The translations under genes and the position numbers were made by a program. Below the pieces are notes generated by a model. That model was not told where the DNA came from and did not search any database. It worked only from the letters and a program-made list of their open reading frames with translations. A stretch of DNA of 21,078 nt from a virus. The DNA lies in the IMG/VR virus record IMGVR_UViG_3300046458_000055, positions 1 through 21,078 of that record; one strand, written 5' to 3'. Below, one piece after another: positions 836-13,253 of the stretch. Each line of letters starts with the position of its first letter. Position 1 is the stretch's first letter.

Positions 836-1366
836 TTAGTGAAATCTCACGCACCCGTTGTTGGATGCCATATCAAATGCAGCCCTCCAGTACTGATAGT
901 TTTGGTAAAAGTCACCGCCTTCCTTTTTGGCTTTTGCGTCAAAGTCAGCAAAGTCCCTTGCCAGTTTCTCGCTAACTTTCGTACCAATTACACCCTCGCA
1001 ATCACTGAAGTTTATCAACTCATAAAAAGGGCCATTACCGGCAGCTAATGCTCCTGCAAAGTGGCAACTTTCAACACGTCCGTATTGAATTTGTTCCGCC
1101 AGGAGATAACCGGCAATATCAGCCAGTTTGTCCCGCCACCAGTAATGACCTCCATATCCAATGCCATGGCCAGTGCAATCTTCGTATGAATAGACTGCAC
1201 CAGTTTCAATTTCATCTGCGCGACCCGTGAAGTCTGGGTTAACCCATGGTGTGAACCATTCGCTATCACACGGCAATTCTTCGCGAGTTTTATTGTCGAT
1301 AGCTTCACCGTCGTCATTGATGAACGCATCCAGCTTCTTAATGCCCCTATAAGAGGAATGCTGCAT
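836..1366 (-). CDS. Hypothetical early left-operon protein
   Basis: A 176-residue soluble protein starting MQHSSYRGIKKLDAF. The central part is rich in Gly, Tyr and Trp (GHGIGYGGHYWWRDK) and the protein has several Cys and His, but no motif I can tie to a function. It follows N in the pL operon. Its ATG lies inside the N reading frame, at the base after the conserved N tail begins, and there is only a weak AGAAGA ribosome-site candidate, so translation may depend on ribosomes finishing or passing through N. In this frame a TAA lies 14 codons upstream of the ATG with no other standard start between, so the start is well fixed. It is the convincing frame where it overlaps the N frame extension. 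Confidence 0.65.
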   Translation of the reverse strand: MQHSSYRGIKKLDAFINDDGEAIDNKTREELPCDSEWFTPWVNPDFTGRADEIETGAVYSYEDCTGHGIGYGGHYWWRDKLADIAGYLLAEQIQYGRVESCHFAGALAAGNGPFYELINFSDCEGVIGTKVSEKLARDFADFDAKAKKEGGDFYQNYQYWRAAFDMASNNGCVRFH

Positions 1367-1605
1367 CCGCGCATCTTCTGGCGGGCATTCGTTAGCTGTC
1401 CGTAAGGGTTATTCACCTTCCGGTACTCAGGATTCTCGCGAGTCACAAACTCAGGATCAGGCTTACTACGCACTCCAGGTGCTGTTACTGCTCTCAGAAC
1501 CCGGTCAGTGCAGCCAGTCACTGATGTATTGCGCTCAGCTGCACGTTTAGCCCTGCGGCGATTTCTGGCGTTATCAGAGGCCAGATAGGTCATTACGATT
1601 GTCAT
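1045..1605 (-). CDS. N: N-type transcription antiterminator with long frame extension
   Basis: First gene of the pL transcript with a recognisable product. The arginine-rich segment DNARNRRRAKRAAERN (residues 11-26) matches the boxB-binding helix of P22/lambda N proteins, and NARQKMRGCSIPLI (73-86) closely matches the end of lambda N (SGRQKIKGKSIPLI). N binds the nut RNA with host Nus factors and makes RNA polymerase pass terminators. The start is the ATG at 1603-1605 after GGAGG; an ATG four codons later is possible. Lambda N stops directly after SIPLI, which here would be base 1348, but this frame stays open for 100 more residues to base 1045, overlapping the 836-1366 gene in another frame. 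The extension looks like a shadow of that gene and may or may not be functional. Identity of residues 1-86 is firm. Confidence 0.8.
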   Translation of the reverse strand: MTIVMTYLASDNARNRRRAKRAAERNTSVTGCTDRVLRAVTAPGVRSKPDPEFVTRENPEYRKVNNPYGQLTNARQKMRGCSIPLIGALRSWMRSSMTTVKLSTIKLAKNCRVIANGSHHGLTQTSRVAQMKLKLVQSIHTKIALAMALDMEVITGGGTNWLILPVISWRNKFNTDVLKVATLQEH

Positions 1606-1971: not shown

Positions 1972-2029
1972 TACTGCGGGTATTTATTGTTGATGTAAAT
2001 CTAAGATGTTTATGAATATTAAGGGTATT
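1945..2029. promoter_or_regulatory. oL: three CI/Cro operators
   Basis: Three 15-bp near-palindromes of the form AATAC-N5-GTATT: AATACTATCGGTATT (1945-1959), AATACTGCGGGTATT (1970-1984) and AATATTAAGGGTATT (2015-2029). Centre spacing is 25 and 45 bases. They match the oR sites in half-site and length, so the same CI and Cro should bind both regions. Confidence 0.85.
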
Positions 2030-2100: not shown

Positions 2101-2124
2101 AAAAAACCCGGCGCGGAGGCCGGG
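2101..2124 (-). terminator. Terminator of the immunity operon
   Basis: On the minus strand CCCGGC-CTCCGC-GCCGGG is followed by six T. It lies 18 bases after the 32-codon gene and about 70 bases before oL/pL, which is where lambda ends the cI-rexA-rexB transcript. It should insulate pL from lysogenic transcription. Confidence 0.9.
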
Positions 2125-2141
2125 CTGTGTGAAGGGGGATG

Positions 2142-2240
2142 TTAGCTCTTATGCTTAGATTCGTTGATAAGCATGATGAGCTTTTTCCTTTCTTCTTGAC
2201 TAAGTTTAGTTACAGGTTTTGTAGGCAGTTTATCTTTCAT
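2142..2240 (-). CDS. 32-residue basic peptide downstream of SIR2 gene
   Basis: An ATG at 2238-2240 with a consensus AGGAG ribosome site 6 bases before it opens a 32-codon frame ending in TAA at 2142-2144. The peptide, MKDKLPTKPVTKLSQEERKK then LIMLINESKHKS, is highly basic with a likely amphipathic C-terminal helix and no membrane segment. It is the last gene before the immunity terminator and has the same direction as cI and the SIR2 gene, about 107 bases after the SIR2 stop. It may be a partner or regulator of that gene, or an unrelated small regulatory peptide. I do not recognise the family. Confidence 0.6.
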   Translation of the reverse strand: MKDKLPTKPVTKLSQEERKKLIMLINESKHKS

Positions 2241-2347: not shown

Positions 2348-4249
2348 TTAATGATGAACAGAAGCATCGGAAGATTCTTGTAGATCAATAGCATCTTCGT
2401 TTGCTACTGCATCTAAAATAATACTGCTCGTTTTATCTTCACAATCCTCGAGCTCATCATTTTCATGAGGATCATCTGATGCTTCAACATAATCTCTCAT
2501 TATAGCCAATTCCAAGATATATTCTCTCACGGATTCTGACATGTAGTTAAATATTGGCATCTCACCTGAAATTGTAGTAATTATTTGTGATTCATCTAAA
2601 AATTCTATGCAGGTGATAGCCTTATTGTCATCACCTAATAAGATTGCGAATCCAAATGCAAGCCAGTGTTCACCCGCAGCAATTGCCTTATCAAACTCTT
2701 CGGATAATTGAATTTTCAATTCCTCTGTTATTTCTTGTTCTTGAATCTTCAAAAGTAACGCATTGTTTATTATTGCAAAGGAATTTATTTTTGCTGGAAG
2801 TGAATGTTCTCTCATTAACTTCAATATATATTCTGCTGTTTGGTAATCTTTATTTGACATAAAGTCAACGACTAAAGAAATTAATCTATTACCATCTTTG
2901 TTGTCAATGAAAAGTAAGCTATTTATCATTGGTATAAAGTTTGATATTGCATCTTTTAATTCATCATTTTCATCACTGTTTCTTTCAATCATTAACAATG
3001 AACGCAGATATAATGTTAATGACTCAATACTGAAGTGTGCCTTTAAGGAACGCTCAGCATAATCTTTAGCTTTATGAAAATCTTCTTTATGAAAAGCCGA
3101 GTTAGCAAGCAAAATATTCGGCATGCTATAAATGTGAATGTCTTTGCCATTTTTTAAAAATTCAGTTTCTTTTAACATAGTAGATAATGCTGATTGTGCA
3201 TCTTCTGAATCAATATCTGTGCTGAATTGATTCATTTTAGCCCTTAAGCTTGTAATGAACTCTTTTGCAGAATTAATGTGAACTACATGTTCAGAAAGAA
3301 GTTTCATGTCTTTTTTAATGTATTCTGACTTTATATCATCATCTTCAAGGCCAGAAAAATATCTATCAAGCTTAGTTGATAAAGCCGAGTACGGGTCTGA
3401 AACTTCTTCCTGAAGGTTGAATCCAATGGAATGGTGAATTTCAGCCATTGCCTCATCAAATCCTTCTATTTCAATAAGATGGAACCTTGAGAAACGAGCG
3501 AGATTTTTCAGTTCTTCTGGGAGTTGTTCAAAAGTATTGCCTTTCCTGATGCACCAATAAATACCATGAGGGAAACTATTTTCAGAGTGAAGAAGTGTAT
3601 TAAGAGTATCCATTATTGAACGATCATTACCAGCATAACCCATAACGATCATTCCAAATTCCGTTGCGTACTGTTTGAATTTAGTGCGCATATTATCTTC
3701 AAGAGACTCAAGCTCTCTAATTGTATTTTTCAGATCGTCAAACAAAAAATCACCATGCAACTTTACTATCTTCGGCCTATTTGATGTTAATCTTATATTT
3801 TTTATACTTGAGTCATGGGCGCATACTACCGGCCTTAAGTTGTTAGAAAATGTATAACAGGCTTCATTTATTAAATCATCAAAATTAGTAGTAAAAACCG
3901 TATTGAAGGTTTTCTCTTTCAGTAAATTAACTAAATATACATACCCCCATGAAGGGTTGCTGTTTACTATGCATCTTTCGATATATTCTCTTCGTTGAGT
4001 AGGTTGGTCATACAACTTTTCAAATAGTTCGGAATATTCATTACCCTTTTCTAACCACGGTTCTAACTTAAGTTTTTCTAGCCCATACATATCAATGTAT
4101 GATGCCTTCCATTCCTCAATCATTTCTTTAGCGCTTTTTATTCCGCTAGTTATACTAGCACCTGCACCTAGAAATAAAGTGAAATTTGGGTGGTGTTCTT
4201 TAGTGGTTTTTAGGATATTTATTAAGTGTTTAAGAGGTTTGATGTTCAT
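2348..4249 (-). CDS. SIR2-domain protein in the rexAB position, candidate phage defence gene
   Basis: A 633-residue protein with an N-terminal SIR2 (sirtuin-like NAD-binding/NADase) domain: FLGAGAS (26-32), TTNFDDL (120-126, with the conserved Asn and Asp), KLHGD (163-167, catalytic-type His165) and VMGYAGNDRS (202-211). The rest, about 230-600, is helical with repeat-like stretches (HKAKDYAERSLKAH) suggestive of TPR-type sensor regions, and it ends in an acidic tail. SIR2 domains joined to large helical regions are known from anti-phage systems that deplete NAD+. The gene is much more AT-rich than the phage around it and lies between cI and the immunity terminator, exactly where lambda has the exclusion genes rexAB. 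The ATG at 4249 is the first in frame; its ribosome site is weak. An in-frame TTG at 4342 would add a poorly conserved-looking hydrophobic extension. Function as defence is inference. Confidence 0.85.
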   Translation of the reverse strand: MNIKPLKHLINILKTTKEHHPNFTLFLGAGASITSGIKSAKEMIEEWKASYIDMYGLEKLKLEPWLEKGNEYSELFEKLYDQPTQRREYIERCIVNSNPSWGYVYLVNLLKEKTFNTVFTTNFDDLINEACYTFSNNLRPVVCAHDSSIKNIRLTSNRPKIVKLHGDFLFDDLKNTIRELESLEDNMRTKFKQYATEFGMIVMGYAGNDRSIMDTLNTLLHSENSFPHGIYWCIRKGNTFEQLPEELKNLARFSRFHLIEIEGFDEAMAEIHHSIGFNLQEEVSDPYSALSTKLDRYFSGLEDDDIKSEYIKKDMKLLSEHVVHINSAKEFITSLRAKMNQFSTDIDSEDAQSALSTMLKETEFLKNGKDIHIYSMPNILLANSAFHKEDFHKAKDYAERSLKAHFSIESLTLYLRSLLMIERNSDENDELKDAISNFIPMINSLLFIDNKDGNRLISLVVDFMSNKDYQTAEYILKLMREHSLPAKINSFAIINNALLLKIQEQEITEELKIQLSEEFDKAIAAGEHWLAFGFAILLGDDNKAITCIEFLDESQIITTISGEMPIFNYMSESVREYILELAIMRDYVEASDDPHENDELEDCEDKTSSIILDAVANEDAIDLQESSDASVHH

Positions 4250-4428
4250 GCATATTAACCCGTATAGTAACTTTATAATTAAACTTCTAATGTTTATTTT
4301 AGTGGCTAAAAAACTTATTAAGTGATGTGCAAAGGAAATCAAAATTTATAATGTTAATCGGCAGGATCAAAAAAAACTTTAACCCTGTCAATCACATTTA
4401 GGTTCATCAATTTTATGAGTGTTAACTG
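4250..4428 (-). other. Spacer between cI and the SIR2 gene
   Basis: An AT-rich 179-base spacer with no gene. A TTGACA lies at 4386-4391 on the minus strand but has no good -10 at 16-18 bases. TATAAA near 4345-4350 has only weak -35 candidates. A GTTAAC-type dyad lies near 4421-4434 over the cI stop. The SIR2 gene may be read from pRM/pRE through cI, from a weak local promoter, or both. Confidence 0.4.
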
Positions 4429-5139
4429 TTAAACCAGCCTAAGCTTCGTCTCAACACCCACACCGATGATCCTGCAATTACCGTTGACTGGCGTCATCGG
4501 CCAGGCTGGATTCAGCCCCTTCAAATACTTCTGGCTGCCATCGAAAATCAGGCGCTTAAAAGTAGCCTCGTTCGAATCGGACAGCTTAGCGATTACCAAG
4601 CTGTTATTGATTGCATCACGACCGGTATCGAAGAGGACGAACGTTCCCTCTGGAATGCTCAGGCCGGCAGGTGCTGTCATGGAGTCACCCTCCACCTCAA
4701 GCCAGAACGCATCGCCCTGAATATGAGCGTCAGACTCTAGCCACAGGTCTATATCCTTCAGGGTGTAGGCTTCACATGCCTCCGCCCAAGCTCCCGCCTG
4801 AACCTTGCTAAGGACTGGGTATTTTTTTCCTGGGCTATAAGGTCGGTACCCGGATACATTTGCATCAACCGTGGCAGCATAGCGGCCTACTTCAGCAGCT
4901 AGAGTAGGGCTTATTTCGGATACTTGAGCATTCAAAATTCTGGCGAACGCCGTTACCGTTGGCACGTTCAATCCAATCCTTCCGTTCAAGTAATGGCCCA
5001 CAGCACCTTGAGAAATCCCCATCTCATCAGCGATCGTGTACTGGGTTACCCCTAATTGCTTTTTCTTGGACTCATACAAAGCCTTCAGGCGCTTAGCGTC
5101 TTCAAGTTGGGTTGCAGTCAGATTTTTTTTGTTTTCCAT
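4429..5139 (-). CDS. cI: CI repressor
   Basis: A 236-residue lambda CI relative. The N-terminal helix-turn-helix domain (about 5-75) starts ENKKNLTATQLEDAKRLKAL, close to lambda's start, with recognition region MGISQGAVGHY. The C-terminal LexA/S24-type self-cleavage domain has the Ala115-Gly116 cleavage site in VQAGAW, nucleophile Ser153 in EGDSMTAP and Lys195 in TFKRL. It should bind the oL/oR operators, hold the lysogenic state and be cut on RecA activation. The ATG at 5139 coincides with the expected pRM start point, so the message is probably leaderless as in lambda; a GTG two codons upstream is the alternative. Confidence 0.97.
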   Translation of the reverse strand: MENKKNLTATQLEDAKRLKALYESKKKQLGVTQYTIADEMGISQGAVGHYLNGRIGLNVPTVTAFARILNAQVSEISPTLAAEVGRYAATVDANVSGYRPYSPGKKYPVLSKVQAGAWAEACEAYTLKDIDLWLESDAHIQGDAFWLEVEGDSMTAPAGLSIPEGTFVLFDTGRDAINNSLVIAKLSDSNEATFKRLIFDGSQKYLKGLNPAWPMTPVNGNCRIIGVGVETKLRLV

Positions 5140-5145
5140 AATCAC

Positions 5146-5174
5146 ATTCTAATACCAACAGTAATCAATAATGA
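5146..5174 (-). promoter_or_regulatory. pRM promoter
   Basis: On the minus strand a TAGAAT -10 (5146-5151) is 17 bases from a poor -35, TCATTA (5169-5174). The -35 abuts operator oR2 (5175-5189), the lambda arrangement in which CI at oR2 touches polymerase and activates its own gene. The expected start falls on the cI ATG. Confidence 0.75.
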
Positions 5175-5214
5175 AATACCCCAGATATTTACTTGTATAA
5201 ATACTTGTAGTATT
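5151..5214. promoter_or_regulatory. oR: three CI/Cro operators
   Basis: oR3 AATACCAACAGTAAT (5151-5165), oR2 AATACCCCAGATATT (5175-5189) and oR1 AATACTTGTAGTATT (5200-5214, perfect arms). Centres are 24 and 25 bases apart. oR1 is the most symmetric and overlaps the pR -10; oR3 overlaps the pRM -10. Confidence 0.9.
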
Positions 5215-5216
5215 CT
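5188..5216 (+). promoter_or_regulatory. pR promoter
   Basis: TTTACT (5188-5193), 17-base spacer, TATTCT (5211-5216). The promoter covers oR1 and touches oR2 and drives cro, cII and the replication genes. Transcription should begin near 5223. Confidence 0.85.
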
Positions 5217-5244
5217 TTTGGTTGTGAATCCCAAGGAGTGATTT

Positions 5245-5433
5245 ATGAATCGAATGACTTTAGAGGATTACGCAAAGATTCACGGCCAAGCCAAGGCTGC
5301 TAAGGATTTCGGCGTTATCCAATGTGCGATTAGTAAGGCCATTCGCACAGGCCGCAATATATTTGTGACTATCGGCAAAGATGGTGTTGTTAAGGGGGAA
5401 GAGCTGAAACCTTTCCCAAGCACCAAGAAGTAA
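5245..5433 (+). CDS. cro: Cro repressor
   Basis: A 62-residue protein that aligns along its length with lambda Cro: [20 protein letters not shown], the helix-turn-helix [20 protein letters not shown] (about 15-34), then [20 protein letters not shown] and the PFPSTKK tail. Cro binds the same operators as CI and lowers cI and early transcription during lytic growth. AAGGAG precedes the ATG by 7 bases. It is the first gene of the pR transcript, divergent from cI. Confidence 0.97.
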
Positions 5434-5440
5434 TCATCAC

Positions 5441-5484
5441 CGCTCCTTAAAACTTTGAAGCCGCTCCCACCGAAATGTCGGAGC
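5441..5484 (+). promoter_or_regulatory. nutR: boxA and boxB antitermination site
   Basis: BoxA CGCTCCTTAAAA (5441-5452) starts 7 bases after the cro stop codon. BoxB (5463-5484) has arms GCTCCCAC and GTCGGAGC with one C-C mismatch around the loop CGAAAT, identical to the nutL loop. Position between cro and cII is as in lambda. Confidence 0.85.
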
Positions 5485-5493
5485 AAAACCCAA

Positions 5494-5517
5494 GTGACTT
5501 GCTCACCGCAAAGTCAC
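5494..5517 (+). other. Hairpin between nutR and cII
   Basis: GTGACTT/AAGTCAC arms with a 10-base loop. It is followed by GAAAAAAC, not a T-run, so it is not a classic intrinsic terminator. It lies where lambda has the Rho-dependent tR1, and could be part of such a site. Confidence 0.4.
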
Positions 5518-5541
5518 GAAAAAACACAATCAACACGGAGA

Positions 5542-5574
5542 AGTATCGGATATGGAACACGCAAACAACAGCAA
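5542..5574 (-). promoter_or_regulatory. pRE, CII-activated promoter for cI
   Basis: On the minus strand TTGC-N6-TTGC (5561-5574), the CII recognition pattern, is followed after 13 bases by GATACT (5542-5547). Lambda pRE has the same pattern, the same 13-base interval, and the same position over the start of cII. It would make a cI message antisense to cro. Confidence 0.85.
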
Positions 5575-5821
5575 GTTAATCAACCAGGTAGAAACAGAAC
5601 TCCGCTCCCGGCTAACCCATAAAGGCCAACGCGCATTAGCGAGTGAGGCAGGGTGGCACGAATCAAAAGTAAGCCGCTTGAATCTTCGCGACATGGCGAC
5701 TGTTTTCGTGCTGCTGGAAAAGGTGTGGGAGACAAGCCTGATCGCTGAGGTTGCCAGGCAGGCAGTCGAAGCTGTGATGGGAAAAGAAAAAGCCCCAAAC
5801 GCTGGAACGCTTGAGGCCTGA
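5552..5821 (+). CDS. cII: CII transcription activator
   Basis: An 89-residue CII family protein. The helix-turn-helix QRALASEAGWHESKVSRLNLR (about 26-46) corresponds to lambda's TEKTAEAVGVDKSQISRWKR, followed by a tetramerisation helix (VFVLLEKVWETSLIAEVARQA) and a variable tail. It should activate pRE, paQ and an integrase promoter outside the window, steering infection to lysogeny. Its start lies under pRE and its 3' end under the OOP-like antisense terminator, so it is opposed from both ends. The ribosome site, GGAG, is 12-13 bases from the ATG and not ideal. Confidence 0.9.
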   Translation: MEHANNSKLINQVETELRSRLTHKGQRALASEAGWHESKVSRLNLRDMATVFVLLEKVWETSLIAEVARQAVEAVMGKEKAPNAGTLEA

Positions 5822-5846
5822 TGCGAAAAGACTGGATCAATTCACA
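5782..5846 (-). ncRNA. OOP-like antisense RNA to the cII 3' end
   Basis: On the minus strand a 10-bp stem, GCCTCAAGCG with CGTTTGGGGC around loop TTCCAG (5792-5817), is followed by TTTTTCTTTT, a clear intrinsic terminator inside the cII coding end. A promoter at 5853-5881 would start the RNA near 5846, giving about 65 nt. Lambda OOP RNA (77 nt) has the same place and direction and promotes RNase III cutting of cII mRNA. Confidence 0.75.
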
Positions 5847-5852
5847 GGAGTA

Positions 5853-5881
5853 ATTATGTCATCACTTTCACAGTTGTACAA
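5853..5881 (-). promoter_or_regulatory. pO promoter for the OOP-like RNA
   Basis: TTGTAC (5876-5881), 17-base spacer, CATAAT (5853-5858) on the minus strand. The -10 overlaps the start codon of the ParB-like gene. Confidence 0.7.
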
Positions 5882-6689
5882 ATACAAAGACCAGAACGGC
5901 ACTGAAACCACGGTACGAAAGACCTTCCTTGTTCCGCTGTCAGAAATCTATGTCGAGCCGGGATATAACGTCCGAGATATCGACCAGGCGCATGTTGAAG
6001 AATTCCGGGATGCATTCATTGCCGGTGAGTTTGTTCCGCCGCTGGCGGTTCAGGTCACTGAGCAGGGCGTTAAAGTCATCGACGGCCATCACCGGTATTA
6101 CGGCGCAAAGCTGGCTACCGAATCCGGTACCGAGATTCCACGCCTGGAGTGCAAAGACTTTGTTGGCACTGAAGCCGATCGCATTGCCTTCATGGTCACC
6201 AGTTCTCAGGGTAAGGCTTTGGCTCCACTGGAGCGCGCGGCCGCTTATCTGCGCCTGAGCAATCAGGGTTGGGAAGTTGGTGAGATAGCGAAGAAGGTAA
6301 AACGCAGCGTTGCTGACATTGATCACCATCTTCAGCTGCTGGAGTGCGGCGACAGTCTGATTGAAATGGTCAGGGCAGGTGAGGTGGCGCCCACGACTGC
6401 GGTCGCTCTTTCCCGCCAGCACGGCACACACGCCGCCGCAGTCGCTGAGATTCAACTGGGCAAGGCCAAAGCATCTGGCAAGACCAAGCTTACCAAATCA
6501 GCGGCAATGCCTCAGTTCAGCGCTCACAAGGCACGTCGACTGGCTGAATTGCTGGTTGATGCTGAGTTCGGTGTTGATGGTGGTTTTCACCAGCTAATCC
6601 TCTCTCAAGGCACCGTTGAAGAGATTAAACGCATTCTCGCTGAATACCGTTCAGGTGTCGGCGGAAAACAGGGTGAGGAAGCAGTATGA
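5856..6689 (+). CDS. ParB-like protein of the replication operon
   Basis: A 277-residue protein with a ParB/sulfiredoxin-type N-terminal domain: substrate-type segment VEPGYNVRDID (33-43) and the signature VIDGHHRYYGAK (74-85), then a probable helix-turn-helix (WEVGEIAKKVKRSVADIDHHL, about 135-155). Such proteins occur in the pR operon of several lambdoid phages just before O; some family members are nucleases or CTP-dependent DNA-binding proteins, but the role here is not known. The start at 5856 has CAGGAG 5-6 bases upstream; an earlier in-frame TTG is unlikely. It overlaps O by four bases (ATGA). Confidence 0.85.
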   Translation: MSSLSQLYKYKDQNGTETTVRKTFLVPLSEIYVEPGYNVRDIDQAHVEEFRDAFIAGEFVPPLAVQVTEQGVKVIDGHHRYYGAKLATESGTEIPRLECKDFVGTEADRIAFMVTSSQGKALAPLERAAAYLRLSNQGWEVGEIAKKVKRSVADIDHHLQLLECGDSLIEMVRAGEVAPTTAVALSRQHGTHAAAVAEIQLGKAKASGKTKLTKSAAMPQFSAHKARRLAELLVDAEFGVDGGFHQLILSQGTVEEIKRILAEYRSGVGGKQGEEAV

Positions 6690-7489
6690 GCCTCGCCAAA
6701 GTAATCCAGTTCCCAAAACAAACCGAGCAAACGGGAGGTCATATGGCCGACCTGTCCAACGGGTATACCAAAGTAGCCAACGAGATACAGCAGCTTAAGC
6801 CTCGCCTGAGAATGTCGGGCAGGGAGTGGCAGTGCTTTGAAGCGGTGATATGGCTTACCTACGGATGGAATAAAAAACAGGACAGGGTAACGAACACTGT
6901 AATCGCTGAAATGACAGGCCTCAGTGATAAGCATGTTTGTGATGCCATCAAGTCTCTGGCAGAACGCAATATAATCTTCAGCCGCAAGCAAGGAATGATG
7001 AAGTTGGTTGGCGTGAATACAGAGATTTCAGCATGGATTTTAGATAGACCGGAAATGGGAACAAAATCCCCGAAAACGGGAATAAGGCTCCCGGAATCAG
7101 GTAAAACATCCCCGGAAACGGTAACCACCCAATACAAGAACAAGAACACTAATAAAACCCCCCTTAATCCCCCCAAGGGGAAAACTAAATCATTCGATCC
7201 GATGGCTGTAGAAATTCCTGAATGGCTGAGCAAAGGCGCTTGGCAGGAGTGGGTTCAGTACCGGAAAGAATCCCGGAAGTCTATTAACTCTCAACTGACG
7301 GTGACCAAGGCCTTCAATGCGCTCAATGATTACCGCTCTGAAGGCCATGACCCGGTGGATGTTATCAACCACTGTATCGCCAATAGCTACCAAGGCCTTT
7401 ATCCACCAAAGGGCAAGCAAAGCCGGCAACAGGGCGTTGCTCAGCCTTCAAAGCCAATGAATCACATTCCGGAGGGCTTCACAGGATGA
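6686..7489 (+). CDS. O: Replication protein O, origin binding
   Basis: A 267-residue lambda O relative. The N-terminal domain has the family layout: IQFP leader, ADLSNGYTKVANE (22-34), then a winged helix (REWQCFEAVIWLTYGWNKKQDRVTN, about 46-70; IAEMTGLSDKHVCDAIKSLAERNII). It should bind the iterons at 7048-7126, which lie in its own coding sequence as in lambda, and recruit the helicase loader encoded next. The start at 6686 overlaps the ParB-like stop and has GAGGAAG; an internal ATG at 6743 with GGGAGG could also initiate, giving a form lacking the leader. A charged, Lys/Pro-rich linker follows the origin-coding segment. Confidence 0.92.
   Translation: MSLAKVIQFPKQTEQTGGHMADLSNGYTKVANEIQQLKPRLRMSGREWQCFEAVIWLTYGWNKKQDRVTNTVIAEMTGLSDKHVCDAIKSLAERNIIFSRKQGMMKLVGVNTEISAWILDRPEMGTKSPKTGIRLPESGKTSPETVTTQYKNKNTNKTPLNPPKGKTKSFDPMAVEIPEWLSKGAWQEWVQYRKESRKSINSQLTVTKAFNALNDYRSEGHDPVDVINHCIANSYQGLYPPKGKQSRQQGVAQPSKPMNHIPEGFTG
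7048..7126 (+). other. Phage replication origin, four iterons
   Basis: Four imperfect repeats inside O: ACCGGAAATGGGAACA (7048), CCCCGAAAACGGGAATA (7068), TCCCGGAATCAGGTAAA (7089) and CCCCGGAAACGGTAACC (7110). Their cores are 20-22 bases apart, two helical turns, as expected for O dimers on one face. An A-rich stretch (7131-7157) and a CCCCTT/AAGGGG hairpin (7160-7180) follow, resembling the unwinding side of lambda ori. Confidence 0.8.
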
Positions 7490-8214
7490 GCACACATGAC
7501 CTACTGAAACGCCTACAGGCTTCAATGCCTCCCGGCGTGCAACCGAAGTTCACCACTGGCGAGGAGTGGAAAGCCTGGCAGGAAGAGCAGGGCCGGATTT
7601 CATCTCAGCGCGTTGCCGAACGGAACCGACTTACCCGGCTTCAGGCTGTGCTCGGGCGTTCAGGAATTCAGGGGCTTCACCAGTCCTGCACCTTCCAGAA
7701 CTACAACGCCGACCTGCCAGGCCAACAGCACGCACTTGGAATGGCAAAGCAATACGCCTTCCAGTTTGGCAATGGCTTTGGTGGGTTCATTTTCAGCGGC
7801 GGTTGCGGCACTGGAAAGAATCACCTGGCGGCCGCGATCGGCAATCATCTGCTTTCAAAGGGCCAGTCTGTGCTCGTTGTTACCGTTCCTGACCTGATGA
7901 TGCGATTTCGTGAAACGTACCAGGATGGCGCCCGACTGAGTGAGTCAGACCTGATGAAAGACCTCTGCAATGTTGACCTACTGGTGCTCGATGATATCGG
8001 CGTGCAGCGAGGCAACAAAAACGAGGAAGTGGTGCTTTTCCAGATCGTGGATAACCGTCTGAGCAACCGTAAGGCTGTCGGCATGCTGACCAATCTGGAC
8101 GAGAAGGGCATGACCGAAGTGCTGACTGAGCGGATCATGGACCGGATGATAATGGACGGCGGCATGTGGATAAACTTCGACTGGTCCAGTTACCGTAGCC
8201 AGGTGAAATCATAA
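7486..8214 (+). CDS. DnaC-like helicase loader
   Basis: A 242-residue AAA+ ATPase. Walker A is GGCGTGKN (105-112), with the unusual GKN ending also found in E. coli DnaC; Walker B is LLVLDDIGV (165-173). The match to DnaC extends through GKNHLAAAIGNHLLSKGQSV, the sensor-1 MLTNLDEKGMTE and the end MDRMIMDGGMWINFDWSSYR. It should deliver the host DnaB helicase to O at the origin, taking the place of lambda P. It overlaps the end of O by four bases and so belongs to the same translationally coupled unit. Confidence 0.93.
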   Translation: MSTHDLLKRLQASMPPGVQPKFTTGEEWKAWQEEQGRISSQRVAERNRLTRLQAVLGRSGIQGLHQSCTFQNYNADLPGQQHALGMAKQYAFQFGNGFGGFIFSGGCGTGKNHLAAAIGNHLLSKGQSVLVVTVPDLMMRFRETYQDGARLSESDLMKDLCNVDLLVLDDIGVQRGNKNEEVVLFQIVDNRLSNRKAVGMLTNLDEKGMTEVLTERIMDRMIMDGGMWINFDWSSYRSQVKS

Positions 8215-12845: not shown

Positions 12846-13253
12846 ATGCGATACCCTATAAATCTGGAATCGTGCGAAGGGGGATATTTTGTTTCATTCC
12901 CTGATATCCCCGCAGCGCTGACTCAGGGCGACACGCGAGAAGAAGCGTTAGAGATGGGGCTGGATGCGCTGGTTACTTCATTCGATTTTTACTTTGAAGA
13001 TAATCGGCCTGTTCCGCTTCCCGGTGATATAACCGGCGATTACGTTGATGTGCCCGCCAGCGTGGCGGCAAAGGTGATGATGCTCAATGCGTTCATTGAT
13101 TCCGGCTTAACTCAGGTTGAGCTGGCTTCGCGCATGGGGGTAAAAAAGCAGGAAGTAACGCGGCTTTTTAATCTGCATCACTCAACGAAAATCGACACTA
13201 TTCAGAAGGCGCTATCCGCGCTGGGTAAACGGTTGGAACTGACCGTAGAATAA
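12846..13253 (+). CDS. hicB: HicB antitoxin
   Basis: A 135-residue HicB. N-terminal partial RNase H-like domain (MRYPINLESCEGGYFVSFPD, DIPAALTQGDTREEALEM, FDFYFEDNRPVPLP) masks HicA; the C-terminal helix-turn-helix (TQVELASRMGVKKQEVTRLFNLHHSTKID, about 85-115) binds the promoter. It matches E. coli HicB closely. The ribosome site is weak (AAGA at -10 or GGAG further away), unlike hicA, so expression may depend on the intercistronic RNA structure. Confidence 0.95.
   Translation: MRYPINLESCEGGYFVSFPDIPAALTQGDTREEALEMGLDALVTSFDFYFEDNRPVPLPGDITGDYVDVPASVAAKVMMLNAFIDSGLTQVELASRMGVKKQEVTRLFNLHHSTKIDTIQKALSALGKRLELTVE

Follow-up and report, generated by a model that had tools for sequence, protein, structure and literature searches.

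What does a SIR2-domain gene do when it lies directly behind the repressor of a lambdoid prophage, and does it act alone? The DNA that raises this question (hereafter the window) is the 21,078-base virus record IMGVR_UViG_3300046458_000055; its gene order is lambdoid, it shares patches of ~92–93% identical DNA with Erwinia phages vB_EhrS_49 and vB_EhrS_59, and its carrier is a dormant virus (prophage) of a plant-associated bacterium. A first-pass annotation had drawn attention to a single AT-rich open reading frame with SIR2 motifs, on the cI strand between cI and the immunity terminator, in the position that rexAB takes in lambda, and had proposed that it encodes a defence expressed along with CI. 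Our analysis leads us to favor, at a probability of roughly two in three, a two-gene abortive-infection cassette that joins a SIR2 NADase carrying a TPR sensor to a dedicated micropeptide, most likely its inhibitor.

Reading leftward from the right operator region, the immunity region consists of cI, the SIR2 gene, a micro-ORF, a terminator-like hairpin and the left operator region (Table 1). The operator pattern occurs 15 times in the window at up to two mismatches, against 7.3 expected, a count that none of 100 shuffles reached, and the three left and three right operator-like sites have the OL/OR arrangement of lambda. The hairpin, a predicted intrinsic terminator, closes what reads as one cI–SIR2–micro-ORF transcription unit. 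Judged by its sequence context, the SIR2 gene occupies the lambda rexAB slot: it sits directly downstream of cI and between the two sets of operator-like sites, shares the cI strand, and lies in a stretch that is replaceable among phages. Its GC content is 33%, whereas the window averages 48% and cI 50%. On these points of position, strand and composition the first-pass annotation was borne out. A consensus scan for a promoter between cI and the SIR2 gene performed at chance (9 found, 11.4 expected); because nothing upstream of it resembles a promoter convincingly, we assume that the gene is transcribed from the repressor promoter. Elsewhere the window encodes NinB, NinG, Q, lysis genes and terminase, with a HicB-like antitoxin gene at 12846–13253 between Q and the lysis genes. 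The ParB-like gene between cII and the O-like gene shares 95.6% DNA identity with Eho59; a partition-like protein is odd in an integrating lambdoid phage.

Table 1. Features of the immunity region and its surroundings in the window
Feature	Position	Strand	Evidence or remark
N-like antiterminator	1045–1605	-	phrog_271, 4e-7; left of slot
Left operator region, three AATAC-N5-GTATT palindromes	1945–1959, 1970–1984, 2015–2029		Pattern search; two exact, one with 1 mismatch
Terminator-like hairpin	2105–2126	-	8 pairs, 6 GC, T run; fold -17.7 kcal/mol, z -3.6
Micro-ORF, 32 aa, MKDKLPTKPVTKLSQEERKKLIMLINESKHKS	2142–2240	-	Net charge +5; strong Shine-Dalgarno TTAAGGAGATTTGTATG
SIR2-TPR gene, 633 aa	2348–4249	-	ATG at 4249, stop 2348–2350
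Disordered acidic C-terminal tail, residues 592–633	2351–2476	-	pLDDT ~27
TPR-like alpha-solenoid, residues 345–590, presumed sensor	2480–3217	-	AlphaFold2 and profile
SIR2 NADase-type domain, residues 1–277	3419–4249	-	SPARSA SIR2 matches by PADLOC, PDB phmmer, VIA-align
Catalytic dyad N122, H165	3884–3886 (N122 codon), 3755–3757 (H165 codon)	-	Alignment to SPARSA N142/H186
cI repressor (HTH and S24 peptidase)	4429–5145	-	Pfam Peptidase_S24 4e-23, HTH_3 3e-7
Right operator region (cI/cro interval), three operator-like sites	5151–5165, 5175–5189, 5200–5214		One exact, two with 1 mismatch
cro	5245–5433	+	Pfam Cro 5e-25, lambda-type; strand opposite SIR2 gene
CII-like	5552–5821		
ParB-like	5811–6689		
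O-like	6686–7489		
DnaC-like	7486–8214		

The slot content has been exchanged as a cassette. When the window is aligned with three related phages, the terminator stretch 2096–2127 is common to the window, Eho59 and Midgardsormr38, homology restarts at cI (at 4430 against Midgardsormr38 and at 4555 against Eho49), and the interior from terminator to cI has no shared sequence. Eho49 carries a TPR protein in the slot, Eho59 two genes matching the PADLOC defence candidate PDC-M63A/B, and Midgardsormr38 a P63C-domain protein; no micro-ORF was found in these alleles that lack SIR2. The Eho59 pair (3683–4971 in that phage), PDC-M63B and the nucleotidyltransferase-like PDC-M63A, is by position presumably expressed with CI. 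The cI-n region is a mosaic hotspot that houses RexAB and BstA (PMC8585504). Lambda RexAB and BstA of Salmonella BTP1 thus resemble our locus in their slot, in presumed co-expression with the repressor and as prophage-encoded exclusion (PMC8585504), although both are unrelated proteins without a SIR2 domain.

The encoded protein carries FLGAGAS at residues 26–32, TTNFDDL at 120–126, KLHGD at 163–167 and GYAGND at 204–209, and it matches Pfam SIR2_2 with an E value of 7e-13. Homologues share its first residue, which backs the assigned start codon, and phrog_23427, a PHROG without assigned function, spans residues 1–613 at 794 bits. Because full-length relatives occur in many phages and N122 and H165 are invariant in all relatives compared, a chance ORF is excluded. 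Profile searches and structure prediction, both proposed in the first-pass annotation, place the SIR2 half closest to SPARSA. In PADLOC the protein scores best against SPARSA SIR2 proteins (2e-70), and these matches centre on the SIR2 half; the SIR2-APAZ models end by residue 277, and one pAgo model reaches residue 385. Against PDB sequences, phmmer returned SPARSA SIR2-APAZ chains as the sole credible matches (3e-24, residues 68–273), with N122 and H165 opposite SPARSA N142 and H186, two residues that SPARSA needs for NADase activity, as alanine mutants show (PMC10781750). SPARSA SIR2 is also the top structural match, with a VIA-align Z of 21 over 270 residues, followed at Z 12–15 by the SIR2 domains of SIR2/HerA, ThsA, KomC and DSR2. 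The protein sequence lacks the CxxC zinc motif of canonical sirtuin deacylases. Because the dyad aligns with that of SPARSA, the best fold is that of SPARSA, and CxxC is absent, we read the domain as NADase-type, and we predict that the protein very likely has NADase activity.

Beyond the SIR2 domain, the first-pass annotation had described about 400 helical residues and an acidic tail. The tail stands (residues 576–633 are 33% Asp/Glu, with a net charge of -17), but the helical part is nearer 310 residues (278–590), leaving a tail of ~42, and its helices form a TPR solenoid. In the full-length AlphaFold2 model the SIR2 fold of residues 1–277 has middling confidence, with pLDDT blocks of 40–84, and the solenoid of residues 381–590 reaches ~84–94 except in one block at 69; a separate model of residues 286–595 is also a TPR solenoid. 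Searched as a profile, the C-half hits consensus TPR chains in the PDB at E values of 1e-20 and below; PADLOC returns nothing for the C-half of the window protein. With the TPR half as sole query, Foldseek gave nothing at E <0.001 and the best VIA-align Z was 10.9, in the range common for helical repeats; because these structural matches are at helical-repeat background, we claim no specific TPR relative. Foldseek against BFVD gave no match <0.001, and low-scoring Pfam matches to RhoGEF, IL15 and PPR were judged spurious.

The earlier suggestion that the protein fits no single named system also held, since SPARSA, DSR, ThsA, SIR2-HerA and Avs5 each fail on a defining feature. SPARSA shares the Asn-His NADase dyad and is the closest solved and catalogued relative of the SIR2 half. 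The protein is not a SPARSA component: it has no APAZ domain, its C-half being TPR, and no short Argonaute gene accompanies it. A PIWI search found no match in 36 phage records including the window and detected the Argonaute of a control genome. Because there is no short Argonaute gene, guide-directed sensing by an Argonaute of its own is excluded. DSR2 is a SIR2 effector with a C-terminal sensor (PMC10981675), and DSR1 and DSR2 share with our protein an N-terminal SIR2 NADase and a C-terminal helical sensor in one chain and, presumably, the logic that links them. DSR2 differs in length, at about 1000 residues against 633 (the DSR MID and CTD sensor, which tail tube activates, accounts for about 700), and as described is without a micropeptide partner (PMC10981675); the length and the lack of any DSR match in the PDB by single protein or profile led us to reject membership. 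Only the SIR2 domain is comparable with that of DSR2, because Z is ~12–13 there and the rmsd is near 20 over both parts. Avs5, a SIR2-STAND protein with TPR-type C-terminal repeats (TPR/Sel1/PPR; PMC12931631), has a similar pairing of SIR2 effector and repeats; here SIR2 joins TPR directly, with no STAND ATPase, as the sequence contains no Walker A motif and has no NTPase Pfam match. Thoeris ThsA does not fit either: Pfam finds no SLOG domain, the C-half is helical, and ThsA matches only the SIR2 half in relatives. SIR2-HerA (Nezha) is set aside because the neighbours are cI and the micro-ORF, or phage genes in relatives, with no HerA. PDC-S65 of PADLOC, a SIR2-type defence candidate comparable in length (592 positions), matches only within the SIR2 half, at residues 21–277. 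SIR2 effectors, TPR sensors, the rex slot and prophage hotspots are all known; our search of the open-access literature found no description of a SIR2-TPR and micropeptide cassette.

The two halves of the protein diverge at different rates. Across the family, mean identity is 79% in the SIR2 half, 35% in residues 346–575 and 28% in the tail. Because dN/dS is well below 1 in both halves where measurable and synonymous sites are about equally saturated in the two, both halves are maintained. The difference is as expected if the C-half is under looser or shifting constraint, which would fit contact with changing phage or partner molecules, and by analogy with related systems we presume that the TPR half is the sensor and the SIR2 half the effector.

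Full-length relatives of 45–78% identity come from IMG/VR, two Vibrio phages and Vibrio genomes, and lie in phages of lambdoid, Mu-like, P2-like and PM2-like type. They are rare: one was found among 369 Gammaproteobacteria genomes and three among 297 Vibrionaceae genomes, and 31 of 5,426 E. coli genomes have matches. No full-length match was found on plasmids. The single window protein retrieved no relative from genome contigs, where a profile search retrieved one Vibrio genome, and viral scans with three other family members added no further full-length members. The positions of these genes vary. In four lambdoid contigs the SIR2 gene directly follows unrelated repressors; in E. coli lambdoid prophages the cassette comes after gene P; and one locus places it in an early-region or nin-like context. 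In P2-like Vibrio phages the gene lies between cI and integrase, and in a PM2-like tailless Vibrio phage it lies beside the integrase. In two Mu-like phages (L022 and L023, ~4700–7100) the cassette, terminator included, sits before a tape-measure-sized gene in a presumed tail operon, whose gene roles are read from size and order. The proposal of a defence expressed along with CI therefore fits the slot in the window and fails as a family rule, because relatives occupy several non-rex sites; lysogen-only expression is not general either, since in several relatives the gene is on the lytic strand or forms part of a late operon. The cassette looks like a self-contained unit that unrelated viruses have acquired repeatedly. 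Rousset et al. 2022 (PMC9122126) name the cI-int site used in the Vibrio P2-like prophages as a hotspot of defence genes. Because the alternative slot cassettes include PDC-M63AB and P63C and relatives lie at known hotspots, we place the cassette in a defence context, and we consider an anti-phage function likely.

Two of these placements deserve mention in their own right. The Mu-like one is a textbook moron position. The E. coli one (L053, 8140–11566), between gene P and the nin region, is the position of lambda ren, which is said to relieve Rex exclusion.

The SIR2 gene is not alone in its slot: a micro-ORF, overlooked in the first-pass annotation, lies between its stop and the terminator. 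Counterparts of 26–32 aa follow the SIR2 gene directly in the relatives, as located by tblastn and a Shine-Dalgarno search, one of them (L018/L019) with a weaker ribosome site. The micro-ORF is present in the window and in 13 of 13 distinct relatives; it is missing from none of the full-length relatives whose downstream sequence is available. Two of these loci (L057 and L058), fetched later by the SIR2 profile alone, both carry it, an out-of-sample success. By comparison, a basic, Shine-Dalgarno-led ORF of such size follows 11 of 559 control genes (2%). The peptides align with one single-residue gap around a core of M-K-x-K ... K-L-S-x-E-x-K-x-x-L-x-x-L and score 17 sd over shuffled peptides, a control that leaves relatedness in; their identity to that of the window is 13–55%. 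Because close pairs have a pN/pS of 0.24, with 18, 12 and 42 differences at codon positions 1, 2 and 3, the micro-ORF behaves as a coding gene. A hairpin and T run follow it in the inspected loci, and the cassette therefore comprises the SIR2-TPR gene, the micro-ORF and the terminator.

In E. coli, 26 genomes have the micro-ORF region and 26 have a nearly full-length SIR2 gene; these are the same genomes among the matches listed, and in none of those does RefSeq annotate a gene at the micro-ORF. An orphan micro-ORF without SIR2 turned up neither among the E. coli genomes, by count, nor in a DNA search of sequenced phages. Nor was a micro-ORF found downstream of a sister family of ~864 aa, which has only the SIR2 half in common (≤49% identity) and occupies the portal/replication-gene interval of P2-like E. 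coli prophages, itself a P2 hotspot (Rousset et al. 2022, PMC9122126). Searches with the peptide itself gave little: tblastn with the 32-aa window peptide returned one chance-level match (E 8), and PHROGs and Pfam held nothing credible and no DNA-binding domain.

All peptides are basic, with charges of +3 to +9, and the TPR halves carry -5 to -19. Across 13 related sequences, peptide distances correlate with those of the TPR half at r 0.58, against r 0.31 for the SIR2 half. The correlation and the charge complementarity hint at peptide-TPR contact. We regard it as quite likely that the peptide is a functional partner of the SIR2-TPR protein. Sofic provides a parallel: this Abi-type protein was thought to act solo until a tiny downstream partner was found, the 47-aa AS1, which neutralises Sofic as an antitoxin (PMC12249575), although Sofic is a FIC AMPylase and not a SIR2 protein. 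This analogy, together with the need to restrain a lethal enzyme inside a lysogen, makes the role of inhibitor the likeliest; granted the partnership, we lean toward an inhibitor over the alternative of an activating subunit.

Under the abortive-infection reading, transcription of the two genes would come from the immunity region's repressor side, and the SIR2 NADase would be held inactive in the uninfected lysogen. The C-terminal TPR solenoid would act as sensor: a component of a competing phage, or the host shut-off that it causes, would engage the TPR half, upon which the SIR2 domain would open or oligomerise, NAD+ would be destroyed, and the infected cell would stop before phage release. 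The 26–32-aa basic peptide may dock on the acidic TPR half and set the threshold or give self-immunity; lodged in the TPR groove, where it would serve as an internal brake (or as bait), it could be a built-in self-immunity or trigger element. At the level of sequence or model, our analysis establishes the gene, its domain order and catalytic dyad, the slot, the mobility of the cassette, and a micro-ORF that is constant and under selection. We infer NADase activity and abortive infection from related SIR2 systems; the trigger, the binding of the peptide and the direction of its effect are conjectural.

A toxin-like gene that shares its transcription unit and single terminator with a tiny basic partner could also form an addiction module, in which the micropeptide would be the labile antitoxin of a SIR2 toxin, loss of the prophage would kill the cell, and defence would be secondary or absent; that the E. 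coli micro-ORF, by count, never occurs without the SIR2 gene agrees with this. We nonetheless think it unlikely. The partner lies downstream and has no recognizable DNA-binding domain, unlike most autoregulated antitoxins, a long and fast-evolving TPR half would be superfluous for a plain toxin, and some of the sites are known prophage defence hotspots. The addiction and defence readings overlap, as antitoxin loss on infection would also yield defence.

We give somewhat less credence to the SIR2 protein defending alone, with the micro-ORF as a separate travelling gene (for example, one for an anti-host or anti-phage peptide) that makes no contact with it. In favor of this reading, the peptides are short and diverged; against it, every member examined, from Caudoviricetes to a PM2-like virus, has the micro-ORF, the sister family with only the SIR2 half in common has none that we could find, and the peptide diverges with the TPR half rather than with the SIR2 half.

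It is improbable that the protein is an NAD+-dependent deacylase or ADP-ribosyl transferase that tunes lysogeny through host or phage proteins, rather than an NADase. Yeast Hst2 matches the fold at Z 13–14, and the cI-adjacent position suggests steady expression in the lysogen; the NADase-type SIR2 domains are closer (SPARSA, Z 21 and E 3e-24), the CxxC zinc motif is missing, and the carrier phages have unrelated repressors. Finally, the SPARSA-type SIR2 domain and the lack of PIWI in the 36 phage records could mark a degenerate SPARSA component that lost its Argonaute and became non-functional cargo, an idea we consider barely credible given an intact ORF, purifying selection in both halves where measurable, a TPR half and micro-ORF of its own, and an architecture unchanged in many phages.

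Prophages must arm the host without killing themselves along with it, and solutions are known for few systems (BstA-aba, Tha). Here a probably lethal NADase lies beside a conserved micropeptide and moves with it among unrelated phages, including a tailless one, so that a start-codon mutation could test self-protection. We put forward tentatively, at a little under even odds, that the cassette represents a mobile two-gene family of prophage defences whose SIR2 NADase and TPR sensor are set by a dedicated 26–32-aa peptide, possibly the first SIR2 defence with encoded micropeptide control. Other SIR2 defences regarded as single genes may have partners below annotation size; the micropeptide was overlooked because annotation pipelines often skip such short ORFs.

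More distant SIR2 proteins lie in other settings. A SIR2 tree was set aside as evidence, its deep branches being weak and its long Haloferax branch misplaced. On the conjugative plasmid P2 of Pantoea agglomerans (L012, 3396–7568), a SIR2 family protein of 860–869 aa has an integrase as its neighbour, and a gene for an AvrE-family type III effector is a few genes away. Haloferax virus Halfgib1, an archaeal pleolipovirus, encodes a 555-aa SIR2-TPR protein (L010, 2062–3729); a weak small ORF without resemblance to the micro-ORF overlaps its stop, and the gene adjoins a winged-helix regulator near an integrase; the domain order is that of the window protein, here in another domain of life.
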